Shown here: piece after piece, positions 59,856 to 64,000 of the stretch | Position numbering within the stretch: position 1 is the first letter of the stretch | Layout: the number at the start of each line of letters is the position of its first letter | NCBI RefSeq assembly: GCF_004365705.1 | Contig: NZ_SOBN01000001.1 | Coordinates: forward strand, 4,884,001 to 4,948,000 | Direction of reading: 5' to 3' | From: Streptomyces sp. 846.5 | GTDB taxonomy: Bacteria; Actinomycetota; Actinomycetes; Streptomycetales; Streptomycetaceae | Length of the DNA: 64,000 nucleotides | Made by a program: the position numbers and the translations under genes | The notes under the pieces: model-generated | Databases searched by the model: none | Seen by the model: the letters and a program-made list of their open reading frames with translations, nothing else | What the model was told of the DNA's origin: nothing

Positions 59856-59940
<85 letters not shown>

Positions 59941-59950
59941 GGGAAATAGG

Positions 59951-59994
59951 ACGGCCCCTCACCTGCGGAAACGCAGATGGGGGGCCGTTTTCAT
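59951..59994 (+). terminator. Rho-independent terminator after tRNA-Tyr
   Basis: ACGGCCCC (59951-59958) pairs with GGGGCCGT (59981-59988), with an inner CTGCG/CGCAG stem closing on GAAA, and TTTT follows. Confidence 0.9.
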
Positions 59995-60174: not shown

Positions 60175-61044
60175 ATGAGCAATCCCTGGGGCCTCAGCGG
60201 CCCGCAGTTCCTGGTCGTGTACATCGCCGCACTCGCCGCATCGCTCCTCCTGGTGCTGATCTTCCGTGCCCTGGTGCGCGGCGCGGGCCGGGCCGACAGC
60301 GGGCCCGTGGACGTCTACACGGCGGCGGCCGTCGCGGGCGGCAGCAACCGGGTCGTCGACACGGCCGTCTACGCCCTGGTCAAGGGCGACCACCTGCGCG
60401 CCGCCCGGGACCGGACGGTCACCGTCTGCGGCGGGACGCCGGTGGAGCCCGTGCAGTGCGCGGTGCTGGACTCCTTCGGGCTGCGCAAGAGCGCCAAGTT
60501 GAGGGAGGTGCGTGACTTCGCAGGCCGGACGCGGCAGGTGCAGGAGACGGTCGCGCACGCCGTCGACCGGAGGCTGCGGCTCAGCGACACGCGGCGCAAT
60601 CTGGGTCGGTTGGCGGCGCTGTTCCCGCTGGTCGTGCTGGGCGTGGGCATTGCGAGGGCGGTCAACGGAGCCCAACTGGGCCGGCCCATCGGGCTCCTGG
60701 TGTTCCTGATGGTGCTGACCGTCCCGCTGGTGCTGATCCCGCTGGCCAACCCGCCGACGGTGAGCCGTGCGGGGCGCCGACTGGTCCGGGCGGCGGGGAC
60801 CACGTCCAGCCGCAGCGAGTTCGTCGGCGCCTCGTACACGTCGACCGGCGCGCTGGTGCCGGCGGGCGTGATCGCGGTGGCGGCGCTGGGCGCGGCCGGC
60901 GTGGAGGACCAGGTCATGCGTTCCGCGCTGTTCGGCAGCGTGGCGTCGTCGGGCGGCGACTCGGGGTCGTCCAGCGGCTGCGGGGCGTCGAGCTGTGGCG
61001 GCGGGTCGAGCTGCGGCGGTGGCGGGGGCGGGTGCGGAGGGTGA
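60175..61044 (+). CDS. TIGR04222-like membrane protein with Cys/Gly/Ser-rich C-terminal tail
   Basis: This gives 289 residues from ATG 60175 (GGGAGGA upstream). It has one N-terminal helix ([19 protein letters not shown]), a soluble part ([27 protein letters not shown]), a pair of helices near residues 145-195, and a further hydrophobic stretch ([18 protein letters not shown]). It ends in a low-complexity tail from about residue 253 of Gly, Ser and four Cys (269, 274, 280, 287). I recognise it as the TIGR04222 type, often encoded beside DUF692 proteins in Streptomyces. The gene overlaps the DUF692/MNIO gene as GTGA. MNIO enzymes modify Cys-containing peptides, so the tail is a candidate substrate; that is inference. 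Confidence 0.88.
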
Positions 61045-62000
61045 GCCGCCGGCCTGCGTCGACTCCGTTGCCGGTGCCGCCAGTGCCTCCACGGCTGGGG
61101 TTCGGCATCGGCTGGCGTCCGGAGATCGACCTCACCGTGGAGCGGCTGCACGGAGTCGACTTCGTCGAGGTCGTCGCCGAGAACATCGACCCCCGCCGGC
61201 TGCCCGAGTCCCTTCGGGTGCTCCGTGCGCGCGGCACCACGGTCGTCCCGCACGGCGTCTCGCTGTCCCTCGGCGGCGCGGACCGTCCCGATCCGGTGCG
61301 GCTCGCACGGCTCGCGGAGTGTGCCCGAGTTCTGGAGTCGCCCCTGGTCAGCGAGCACATCGCGTTCACCCGCGCGGGCGGTCTGGACGCGGGCCACCTG
61401 CTGCCGCTGCCCCGCACCCGGGACGCGTTGGACGTCCTTGCCGAGAACGTCCGCATCGCCCAGGACGCGCTGCCGGTGCCGCTGGCGTTGGAGAACATTG
61501 CCCCGCTGTTCAGCTGGCCGGGTGGGGAACTGACCGAGGGCCAGTTCCTCAGCGAGCTGGCCGAGCGAACCGGCGCGCTGCTGCTGGTGGACGTCGCCAA
61601 CCTGCACACCGCCCAGGCCAACCTGGGCACCAACGCGGGGGACGTGCTGGACGCCCTGCCGCTGGAACGACTCGCGTACGTCCATGTCGCGGGCGGCGTG
61701 GAGCGGGACGGCATCTGGCACGACACCCACACCCACCCGGTGGGCGAGCCCGTCCTCGCCCTCCTGGAGGACCTGGCCGCGCGGGTATCGGGTGCGTCCG
61801 GCGTCCCCGGTCTCCCCGGTGTCCTGCTGGAACGCGACGGCGACTACCCGCCGGACGCGGAACTGGCGGGCGAGCTGGCAGCGATCCGGGACGCGGTCCT
61901 GAACAGCACAGTCCTGAACAGCACAGTCCTGAACGGCATAGTCCTGAACGGCACAGTGCGGCGGGGTGCGGGGAAGAGAGCGCGGCATGCCGACCACTGA
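61041..62000 (+). CDS. DUF692 / MNIO-family multinuclear non-haem iron enzyme
   Basis: The 319-residue TIM-barrel protein probably starts at GTG 61041 (overlapping the upstream stop); GTG 61032 is also possible. Family motifs, with likely metal ligands: VVAENID (Glu47), [12 protein letters not shown] (His71), VSEHIAF (His106), LALENIA (Glu151), [10 protein letters not shown] (Asp184, His189), YVHVAGG (His215), WHDTHTHPV (Asp228, His230) and LLERDGDYP (Glu264). All the iron-site positions I know appear intact. Characterised members (MbnB, TglH, ChrH types) oxidatively remodel Cys residues of ribosomal peptides with a partner protein. The last ~30 residues contain a repeated [10 protein letters not shown] pentapeptide. 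It is tightly coupled with both neighbours. Confidence 0.93.
61896..61955 (+). repeat. 15-bp in-frame tandem repeat, four copies
   Basis: The unit GTCCTGAACAGCACA occurs twice exactly and twice with G at position 10 (one also with T at position 14). It encodes [20 protein letters not shown] near the C-terminus of the MNIO protein, a likely slippage hotspot outside the catalytic barrel. Confidence 0.85.
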
Positions 62001-62364
62001 CCGCTCCGACCCCGCCGCAGACCCCCGAGCGGCTCTCGCCGCGGCCCAGGCCGCGCTCCTGTCCGCGCTCGTGGCGGGCGCGGATGCGCCTCCCGGCTTC
62101 GACGCCGACCGTCTCCGGGTCCAGTCGCACGCGCTGCTTGCCAAGCGCACCCGCCAAGCCGCAGCCCACCACGGGTGGCTGACCCAGGCCCTCCCGGCCG
62201 CCGACTACCGCGCCCACTTCACCGCCTACGCCGCTGCCCACCCGTTGCGGGCGGGCAGCGGCGGCAGCCACGCCGACGCGACAGCGTTCGAGGGGTACCT
62301 GCGTGAACGCGGCCTGCTGCCACCAGCGGTGAAACCCCGCTGGTGGCAGCGTCGCAGCCAGTAG
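61987..62364 (+). CDS. Small helical partner protein of the MNIO enzyme (DUF2063-like, divergent)
   Basis: The 125-residue protein starts at ATG 61987, inside the end of the MNIO gene (14-nt overlap), with GGGGAAGAGAG upstream. N-terminal helix [19 protein letters not shown]; then [31 protein letters not shown] and [18 protein letters not shown], which resemble in spacing the N-terminal helical domain of DUF2063/MbnC-type partners; then a basic WWQRR end. MNIO enzymes usually need such a partner to bring the peptide. There is no Cys and no membrane segment. Homology to DUF2063 is a pattern judgement, not a computed match. Confidence 0.75.
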
Positions 62365-62381: not shown

Positions 62382-64000
62382 TCAGCCGCCGTAGTAGCCG
62401 AAGACGTCCACGACCACGTCGGCGCCGGCGGCGCTGCCGTTGTGGAAGTCGATCCGCCCGTCGACCACCGGCAGCGTGACCAGGTTGGGGATGGTCTGCC
62501 CCGCCGACCAGTTCAGGTTCGATGAGGTGGGCAGCGGCTTGCCGTCCGGATAGACCGTCAGGTATCCGGGCGCCCCGGTGCGGGTGACGGTGACGTTCAG
62601 CACGACCGCCGTCGCACCGGCCGGCACGGCCGTGCCGGCCAGGTCCAGCGAGCGGGTGCCGCCGCCGGCGATCGGGCTCGCCTGGCGGGTGTCCATCAGC
62701 CGGGTCGGGGCCGTGGTGTGGTAGCTGGAGGTCCCGGTCGCGGAGAAGTAGCCGAACGTGTCGGCGACCAGGTTCACGGTGCCGCCGCTGTGGTTGACCA
62801 GATCGACCCTGCCGTCGGCGCCGACGGGCACCAGCACATGGTTGGCGATGGTCTCCCCGGCAGTCCAGTCCAGGCTGGAGGCGGTGGCAGGGGTGGAACC
62901 GTCCGGGTAGACGCTGGTGTAGCCGCCCGCCGCGGTGTGCGTCGCCGTCACATTGAGGACCACGGCGGTCACCCCGGAGGCCGGCAGTCCGCCTCGGCCC
63001 GCCACTTGGAGGGTGACCTTCCCGTTGGCGGGCACCGGCGTCCGGGTGCTGACCCCGTTCGCCGCACGGGTGTCCAGCAGCCGGGCGGGCCCTGCTGCCG
63101 CGAACGACTGGCCGGTGCTGCCGGAGGTGTAGTAGCCGGAGACGTCCGCGACCACCTGGGTCGTGCCGGTGCTGTGGTTGACCAGGTCCACTTCACCGTC
63201 CGCGCCGACCGGGACGATGACCTGGTTGGCGATGGTCTCGCCCGCCGACCAGTTGAGGTTCGACGAAGCGGGTGCCGCCGAGCCCTCCGGGTAGGCGGTC
63301 AGGACGCCGGCCGCGGTGGGCACGGTGACGGTGATGTTGAGCACCACCGCGCTCACCCCGGAAGCCGGCACTCCGGCGGCCCCCTCGACCAGCAGCGGCA
63401 GCGTGCCGTTGGCCGCAACAGCCCCCTTGGCGACCGTGCCGGTGCCGATCCTGGTGTCCAGCAGGCGCGTGGGCCCGGTCGCGTGGAAGGTGGACGTCTG
63501 CCCCAGCGCCGTCGGTGCCGTGGGCTGCTCGACGACCGAGAACAGGCCGTTGGGAATCAGCGTGTCCGTGCCGGTGGCCAGGACCAGGTGGCGACCGGTG
63601 GTCTTCAGATAGTCGGTGCCGGGGTTGGCGTCGTAGTCGAGCGCCAGGCCGCTGGGGGCCCACTTCGGGCTGTCGTGGTTGACCGAGCCGCTGGTGATCT
63701 GGGTGGCGCTGCCGGACCCGTCGGCGCCCTGGGTGAAGATCTGGTCGAATCCGCCGACGCTGCGCACGAAGGCCAGCGTCGAGCCGTCCGGCGAGATGTC
63801 CGGCTGCCGGCCGTTGCTGATGAGCAGTCCGGCGGTGTGGGTGCCGTGGTCGGTCCAGATGTCCTTGCTGCTGCCGCCGGTGGCGTCGTGCTCGAAGTAC
63901 ACCGTGCCGGTGGTGGCGGCCACGGTGGGGTACCGGTCGGATCCCGCCGTCGGGGTCGCGAACCAGGGCTTCTGGTTGGTCGGCTGGTTTGTCGTGGCCG
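62382..64000 (-). CDS. Secreted PD40-repeat protein with three C-terminal surface modules, N-terminus cut by the window edge
   Basis: The frame is open to the right edge, so the start and any signal peptide are missing; 538 residues are visible. The first ~160 hold TolB/PD40-type propeller strands (QPDISPDGSTLAFVRS, SPKWAPSGLALDYD). Three copies of the ~120-residue module follow, each from TRLLDTR/TRLMDTR to DVSGYY, DTFGYF or DVFGYYGG. They are homologous to the ends of the proteins at 5853-10153 and 30316-33588 but more diverged (NLNWSAGETIAN in place of NLNFAAGQTIAN). It converges with the MNIO partner gene 17 bp away and has no evident link to it. Confidence 0.85.
   Translation of the reverse strand, partial: ATTNQPTNQKPWFATPTAGSDRYPTVAATTGTVYFEHDATGGSSKDIWTDHGTHTAGLLISNGRQPDISPDGSTLAFVRSVGGFDQIFTQGADGSGSATQITSGSVNHDSPKWAPSGLALDYDANPGTDYLKTTGRHLVLATGTDTLIPNGLFSVVEQPTAPTALGQTSTFHATGPTRLLDTRIGTGTVAKGAVAANGTLPLLVEGAAGVPASGVSAVVLNITVTVPTAAGVLTAYPEGSAAPASSNLNWSAGETIANQVIVPVGADGEVDLVNHSTGTTQVVADVSGYYTSGSTGQSFAAAGPARLLDTRAANGVSTRTPVPANGKVTLQVAGRGGLPASGVTAVVLNVTATHTAAGGYTSVYPDGSTPATASSLDWTAGETIANHVLVPVGADGRVDLVNHSGGTVNLVADTFGYFSATGTSSYHTTAPTRLMDTRQASPIAGGGTRSLDLAGTAVPAGATAVVLNVTVTRTGAPGYLTVYPDGKPLPTSSNLNWSAGQTIPNLVTLPVVDGRIDFHNGSAAGADVVVDVFGYYGG

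Follow-up and report, generated by a model that had tools for sequence, protein, structure and literature searches.

The Streptomyces sp. 846.5 stretch analyzed here (64,000 nt, hereafter the window) carries a unit of three overlapping genes encoding a TIGR04222 membrane protein, an MNIO (DUF692) enzyme and a small partner protein. The unit and the Cys/Gly/Ser tail that ends the membrane protein are real and conserved. Together, the genes very probably specify an enzyme, its partner and a protein substrate, an idea already in print, and we judge it likely that the product of the unit is a membrane-anchored protein tail carrying a post-translational modification. The features are as follows.

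60175–61044, + strand: TIGR04222-domain membrane protein, candidate substrate and carrier, 289 aa, ATG start (NCBIfam TIGR04222; AF2 model).
60934–61041, + strand: disordered C-terminal tail of this protein, residues 254–289, proposed modification site (sequence; low AF2 confidence).
61041–62000, + strand: MNIO (DUF692/PF05114) enzyme, 319 aa, GTG start overlapping the preceding stop (PF05114; iron ligands).
61987–62364, + strand: small all-helical MNIO partner protein, PME-type 2/DUF2063-like, 125 aa, ATG start (homologue linkage; fusion; AF2).

The three + strand ORFs, called on the sequence, encode 289, 319 and 125 residues. The TIGR04222 and MNIO genes share the 4 nt GTGA (61041–61044), and the MNIO and partner genes share 14 nt (61987–62000). 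The translationally coupled unit of the original prediction is thus found in the sequence as described. The 9.0 Mb genome contains a single MNIO and one clear TIGR04222 protein. A scan for promoter and terminator consensus sequences found nothing. It is extremely improbable that the three genes adjoin by accident and are functionally unrelated: the compact gene packing of actinobacteria would favor such a reading, for which no other support was found, and against it stand conservation over many families, in differing gene orders and always on the same strand (68 of 68 TIGR04222–MNIO clusters), and fusion of the partner to the enzyme in many genomes.

A tRNA-Tyr gene (59856–59940) precedes the unit by about 235 nt, and the DNA alignable with the nearest genus-mates stops just past it (about 59973–59993). 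At the same place, genome G398 (locus L332) has an integrase-like gene, and 60 bp of the tRNA end are repeated about 21 kb onward; in the window's genome, the tRNA end was not found a second time. The unit may perhaps occupy a site used by integrating elements. Downstream, on the – strand, a 513-aa ORF (62382–63923) has one weak PD40 β-propeller match and repeated segments, and no apparent tie to the unit.

In the proposal of Antoine et al. 2025 (PMC12452194), some TIGR04222 proteins, most of them from Actinomycetota, are MNIO substrates via C-terminal Ser/Gly/Cys tails, and the short DUF2063-like partners in these clusters are termed PME-type 2 proteins. The original prediction had known of no description of a modified membrane-anchored tail; that claim does not survive, as exactly such a tail is proposed there. 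In that study, more than one in four TIGR04222 proteins have no Cys near the C-terminus, a third of the genomes with TIGR04222 lack an MNIO, and PME-type 2 partners occur in at least 10% of TIGR04222–MNIO clusters, many clusters having no partner genes. The tails were called periplasmic, and the tail modification itself was left open; we found no report in the literature measuring it. Our analysis shares with theirs the families, the Cys/Ser/Gly tails, the short partner, the mostly actinomycetotal distribution and the tail as MNIO substrate. It differs in that a partner homologue is found beside 79 of 84 sampled MNIOs, often fused, in that topology points to the cytosol rather than the periplasm, and in that the tail is found on other carriers too. 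The published proposal is strengthened here by the association of tail and enzyme, the exchange of carriers, the nearly universal presence of the partner and the argument from topology.

The first protein matches the NCBIfam TIGR04222 model with 98.9 bits (E 3.3e-28; cut-off 43) and is without a Pfam match. Weak Pfam hints on other TIGR04222 members (HTH_20, GPP34, DUF2207_C) were set aside as evidence. Its AF2 model (mean pLDDT 85) has long membrane helixes at residues 9–35, 138–167 and 173–191, and searching the PDB with the model turned up no fold at E 0.001 or better. Cys 269, 274, 280 and 287 of the 289 residues lie in Gly/Ser context, so that the membrane protein ending in a Cys/Gly/Ser tail is seen directly in the sequence. 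The AF2 block means of 43–53 over residues 261–289 are of low confidence and indicate disorder. With four Cys in a Ser/Gly C-terminal tail and a linked MNIO, the protein fits the putative substrate class of Antoine et al. 2025. Of 322 Cys in the sampled tails, 266 have Gly as the next residue, and the preceding residue is mostly Gly or Ser; tails hold 3–10 Cys, with widely varying spacing.

The second protein is an MNIO, scoring 246 bits against PF05114 (E 5e-73; cut-off 25). Its nearest solved relative is TglH (8hci/8hi7; E 3e-24), the iron ligands of which are H71, H107, E151, D184, N187, H216, D229, H231 and E258 (PMC10880893). By alignment, the window enzyme has H71, H106, E151, D184, N187, H215, D228, H230 and E264, and each of the nine is invariant in 84 of 84 actinobacterial MNIO sequences. 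The expectation of a full set of metal ligands thus holds. Two side observations concern other MNIO loci. Three actinobacterial loci (L312, L313, L314) have a distinct, high-scoring MNIO (366–370 bits), flanked upstream by a Cys-rich protein about 200 aa long and downstream by one that is ferritin-like by eye; a full DUF2063 partner was found in L312, the one of the three checked for it. In a genus-mate (G408, L317), the MNIO match is split across two overlapping frames, which may represent a frameshifted or decaying gene.

The third protein had been called DUF2063-like. That it is a small, overlapping neighbor of the MNIO stands; the likeness to DUF2063 is weak on its own, at 13.8 bits against a cut-off of 27.2 (PF09836). 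At 125 aa, it is also shorter than PME-type 1 partners, in which DUF2063 plus RRE span about 250 aa. Its position after the MNIO gene is that of PME-type 2 proteins, which are characterized by the lack of a DUF2063 signature and by a fold related to NGO1945. The DUF2063 links of its family are likewise weak: matches in 9 of 68 members (best E 6e-4), and a profile comparison with E 0.0023 and a probability of only 13%. The AF2 model is all-helical (pLDDT 87.5). No PDB fold matched it at E 0.001 or better, so the search confirmed neither a DUF2063 fold nor any other, and the family profile found chance matches alone among PDB sequences. A homologue adjoins the MNIO in 79 of 84 regions, and in many genomes, notably most Streptomyces, it is fused to the MNIO C-terminus. 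Such natural fusion supports a physical association of enzyme and partner, as judged from gene structure.

Among named MNIO systems, the closest by score are the bufferins (BufA/BufB/BufC), which also combine a Cys-rich substrate with a partner. BufB (NF050167) is the best NCBIfam model for the window enzyme, with 172 bits, under its cut-off of 310. The unit also differs in having no full DUF2063–RRE partner and in its candidate substrate, a multi-helix membrane protein: to judge from Pfam, it holds no bufferin-type precursor with a Sec signal peptide (DUF2282 or Buf_6/12Cys), only the TIGR04222 protein. TglHI (3-thiaglutamate) and MbnBC (methanobactin) share the enzyme family and a two-protein complex, and the TglH ligand set is fully kept. 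In contrast, their precursors are small free peptides, the window partner has no sequence match to TglI or MbnC, and the enzyme likeness is low (TglH 89 bits, MbnB about 24 bits). The MbnB equivalog model gives 35.7 against a cut-off of 325, and no MbnC match was found among the three window proteins. The unit is accordingly not classed as a bufferin or methanobactin system: the enzyme falls below their cut-offs and no precursor matches.

The association of tail and enzyme was examined in about 700 actinobacterial genomes (396 across the phylum and 374 across the class, in overlapping sets, and 14 of the genus), which were searched for both families; 135 TIGR04222 places were fetched with their surroundings. 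A Cys tail was defined by the presence, among the last 60 residues, of at least 3 Cys surrounded by Gly/Ser, and a TIGR04222 gene was taken as linked when an MNIO lay within 9 kb. Cys tails are found on 56 of 78 linked and 10 of 57 unlinked proteins (Fisher P 4e-10, related sequences counted). When a tail-less Streptomyces paralogue type is left out, the counts are 54 of 56 and 10 of 48 (P 1e-16, related sequences again counted). Eight of the 10 unlinked Cys-tail proteins come from genomes with an MNIO elsewhere; of the other two, G462 lies at a contig edge and G527 does not have a Gly/Ser tail. Per genome, a Cys tail occurs in 60 of 78 with an MNIO and in 2 of 31 without (G462 and G527 again). 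Six MNIO-free genus-mates of the window have a TIGR04222 paralogue lacking the Cys tail.

Composition matching leads to the same result. Where at least 60% of the last 30 residues are Gly, Ser or Cys, at least 3 Cys are present in all 55 linked tails and in 2 of 8 from MNIO-free genomes (the same two), the Gly/Ser tails of MNIO-free genomes being mostly without Cys. Poor conservation of the tail Cys beside DUF692 would have counted against the original prediction; instead, Cys are kept beside the enzyme and largely absent without it. This pattern strongly supports the Cys/Gly/Ser tail of the membrane protein as the probable target of the linked MNIO. A finer covariation with the enzyme, in Cys number and spacing, had been offered earlier as a check and was not borne out beyond common ancestry. 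Both correlate weakly with enzyme distance in Mantel tests, and the signal, which disappears once carrier distance is removed, is accounted for by the common descent of carrier and enzyme. Phylogenetically independent pairs on the TIGR04222 tree (four supported pairs, with a mean of 1.7 same and 0 opposite) were too few to reach significance. The gene order of the window and CGG-repeat-rich tails recur in Streptomyces sp. DvalAA-14, Streptomyces sp. NRRL F-5123, Actinacidiphila epipremni and Nonomuraea spiralis.

Tail-less MNIO loci also occur. On a tree of 82 MNIO sequences, presence and absence of the tail require only 4 changes. There is no nearby Cys tail at 21 of the 82 loci, all of which retain every ligand, and 17 of the 21 form one Streptomyces clade (support 98), apparently reflecting one loss; a changed substrate is possible in this clade. 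When the tail-less Streptomyces genomes were searched in full for TIGR04222 proteins, only G678 had an unlinked one with a Cys tail. Because tail-less loci keep intact enzymes, some MNIO members, to judge from their sequences, act on another or an unlinked target. In some of these Streptomyces loci, among them L087 and L083, the gene between the MNIO–partner fusion and a tail-less TIGR04222 gene encodes a DUF4142 protein that has a single hydrophobic stretch, near its N-terminus.

The intact tail-less enzymes, along with the loose Cys spacing, also speak for a different reading of the whole association, namely, that the Cys of the tail stay unmodified and serve in metal or redox binding, that the MNIO target is encoded elsewhere, and that the linkage reflects a shared stress role. 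We regard this as decidedly unlikely, given the composition-matched counts, the single MNIO of the window genome, the lack of another substrate candidate in the operon and the finding that unrelated carriers have the tail only beside MNIOs.

These carriers were found at MNIO loci without a recognized TIGR04222 gene, eight of which still have a Cys/Gly-tail protein beside the enzyme. Six are single-helix anchors (L151, L154, L155, L213, L214, L215); that of L155, of 90 aa, reads MIGMIEILIVIAVLAGGVAAVRLLRAAVYGRRSPRGRW, followed by a Cys/Gly/His tail. The other two (L153, L212), each about 450 aa long, show no evident membrane helixes and count as soluble carriers. In addition, a free Cys peptide of 65 aa is encoded in L096, with two TIGR04222 genes on one side and the MNIO on the other. 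Four carrier representatives scanned against Pfam and NCBIfam gave no match. Some carriers may fall within the small "adjamnio" groups of Antoine et al. 2025. The fetched regions contain 3945 other ORFs of 150 aa or longer; six of these have such a tail, all six beside an MNIO, which is more than chance would give, and no further tail was found. Unrelated carriers that share a tail only where one enzyme family is encoded next to them show the pattern expected of a substrate segment. We infer from these carrier swaps, in which the carrier start sites are predicted, that the tail is such a segment. The earlier remark that no separate precursor is seen is right for the window, the operon of which holds no other candidate, but does not extend to related loci, where free and single-helix precursors bear the same tail.

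The tail's side of the membrane is a matter of prediction in both the published reading and ours. Under the positive-inside rule, 54 of 56 Cys-tail proteins are voted N-out, with 2 ties. N-out orientation with three membrane passes places the tail in the cytosol, where the enzyme is expected, and the Arg cluster of the single-helix anchors likewise lies on the tail side. Modeling and residue charge thus suggest that the tail faces the cytosol, contrary to the published periplasmic reading. For the tail to be outside, a fourth membrane pass would be needed, and the fairly hydrophobic segment 224–243 of the window protein could provide it; AF2 models this fourth stretch as a 13-residue helix, and we think such a pass improbable. 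We similarly hold it unlikely that, as Antoine et al. 2025 propose, the tail is an MNIO substrate located outside the membrane as a bufferin-like copper buffer. That proposal draws on the topology of Antoine et al. 2025, on bufferins being Sec-exported copper binders (PMC12452194) and on the hydrophobicity of 224–243. It is opposed by the positive-inside vote, by the short modeled helix and by the single-helix, soluble and free versions, in which no signal peptide is recognizable by eye.

Returning to a cytosolic tail, we infer the modification itself, its chemistry, its location and any metal binding, and propose the following. The three proteins would be translated together. The small third protein would bind the MNIO enzyme, as the natural fusions suggest, and help present the substrate, as in other MNIO systems. 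The cytosolic enzyme–partner complex would then oxidize some or all Cys of the disordered TIGR04222 tail, with a chemistry that, by analogy, could be bufferin-type thiooxazole or oxazolone-thioamide formation. The tail would stay on the membrane protein, probably displayed at the cytosolic face, and its modified Cys could bind a soft metal, e.g., Cu(I), or serve a redox role.

On the individual steps, a thiooxazole-type modification and soft-metal binding by the tail are the likeliest guesses, though we give each of them less than an even chance. No conserved metal, export or protease gene was found among the neighbors of the unit; the conserved neighbors are synteny-type housekeeping genes (by eye, UPP synthase-like, phenylalanyl-tRNA synthetase-like and arg genes). 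Copper capture, as first suggested, is therefore a mere guess, without direct support in the gene neighborhood.

Taken more broadly, we put at only a little below an even chance the view that a modular Cys/Gly/Ser tail, found on no fewer than four unrelated kinds of carrier, serves as the modification target of a dedicated actinobacterial MNIO–partner pair, the commonest forms being immobilized on the cytosolic face of the membrane. The system would then be a protein-borne, non-released relative of the RiPP metallophores. The small size of the natural single-helix and free-peptide tails puts them within reach of direct mass spectrometry, and the natural enzyme–partner fusions simplify expression. 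If the tail is modified, MNIO enzymes would act on full-length membrane proteins, not just on small peptides, and the product would stay in the producing cell.
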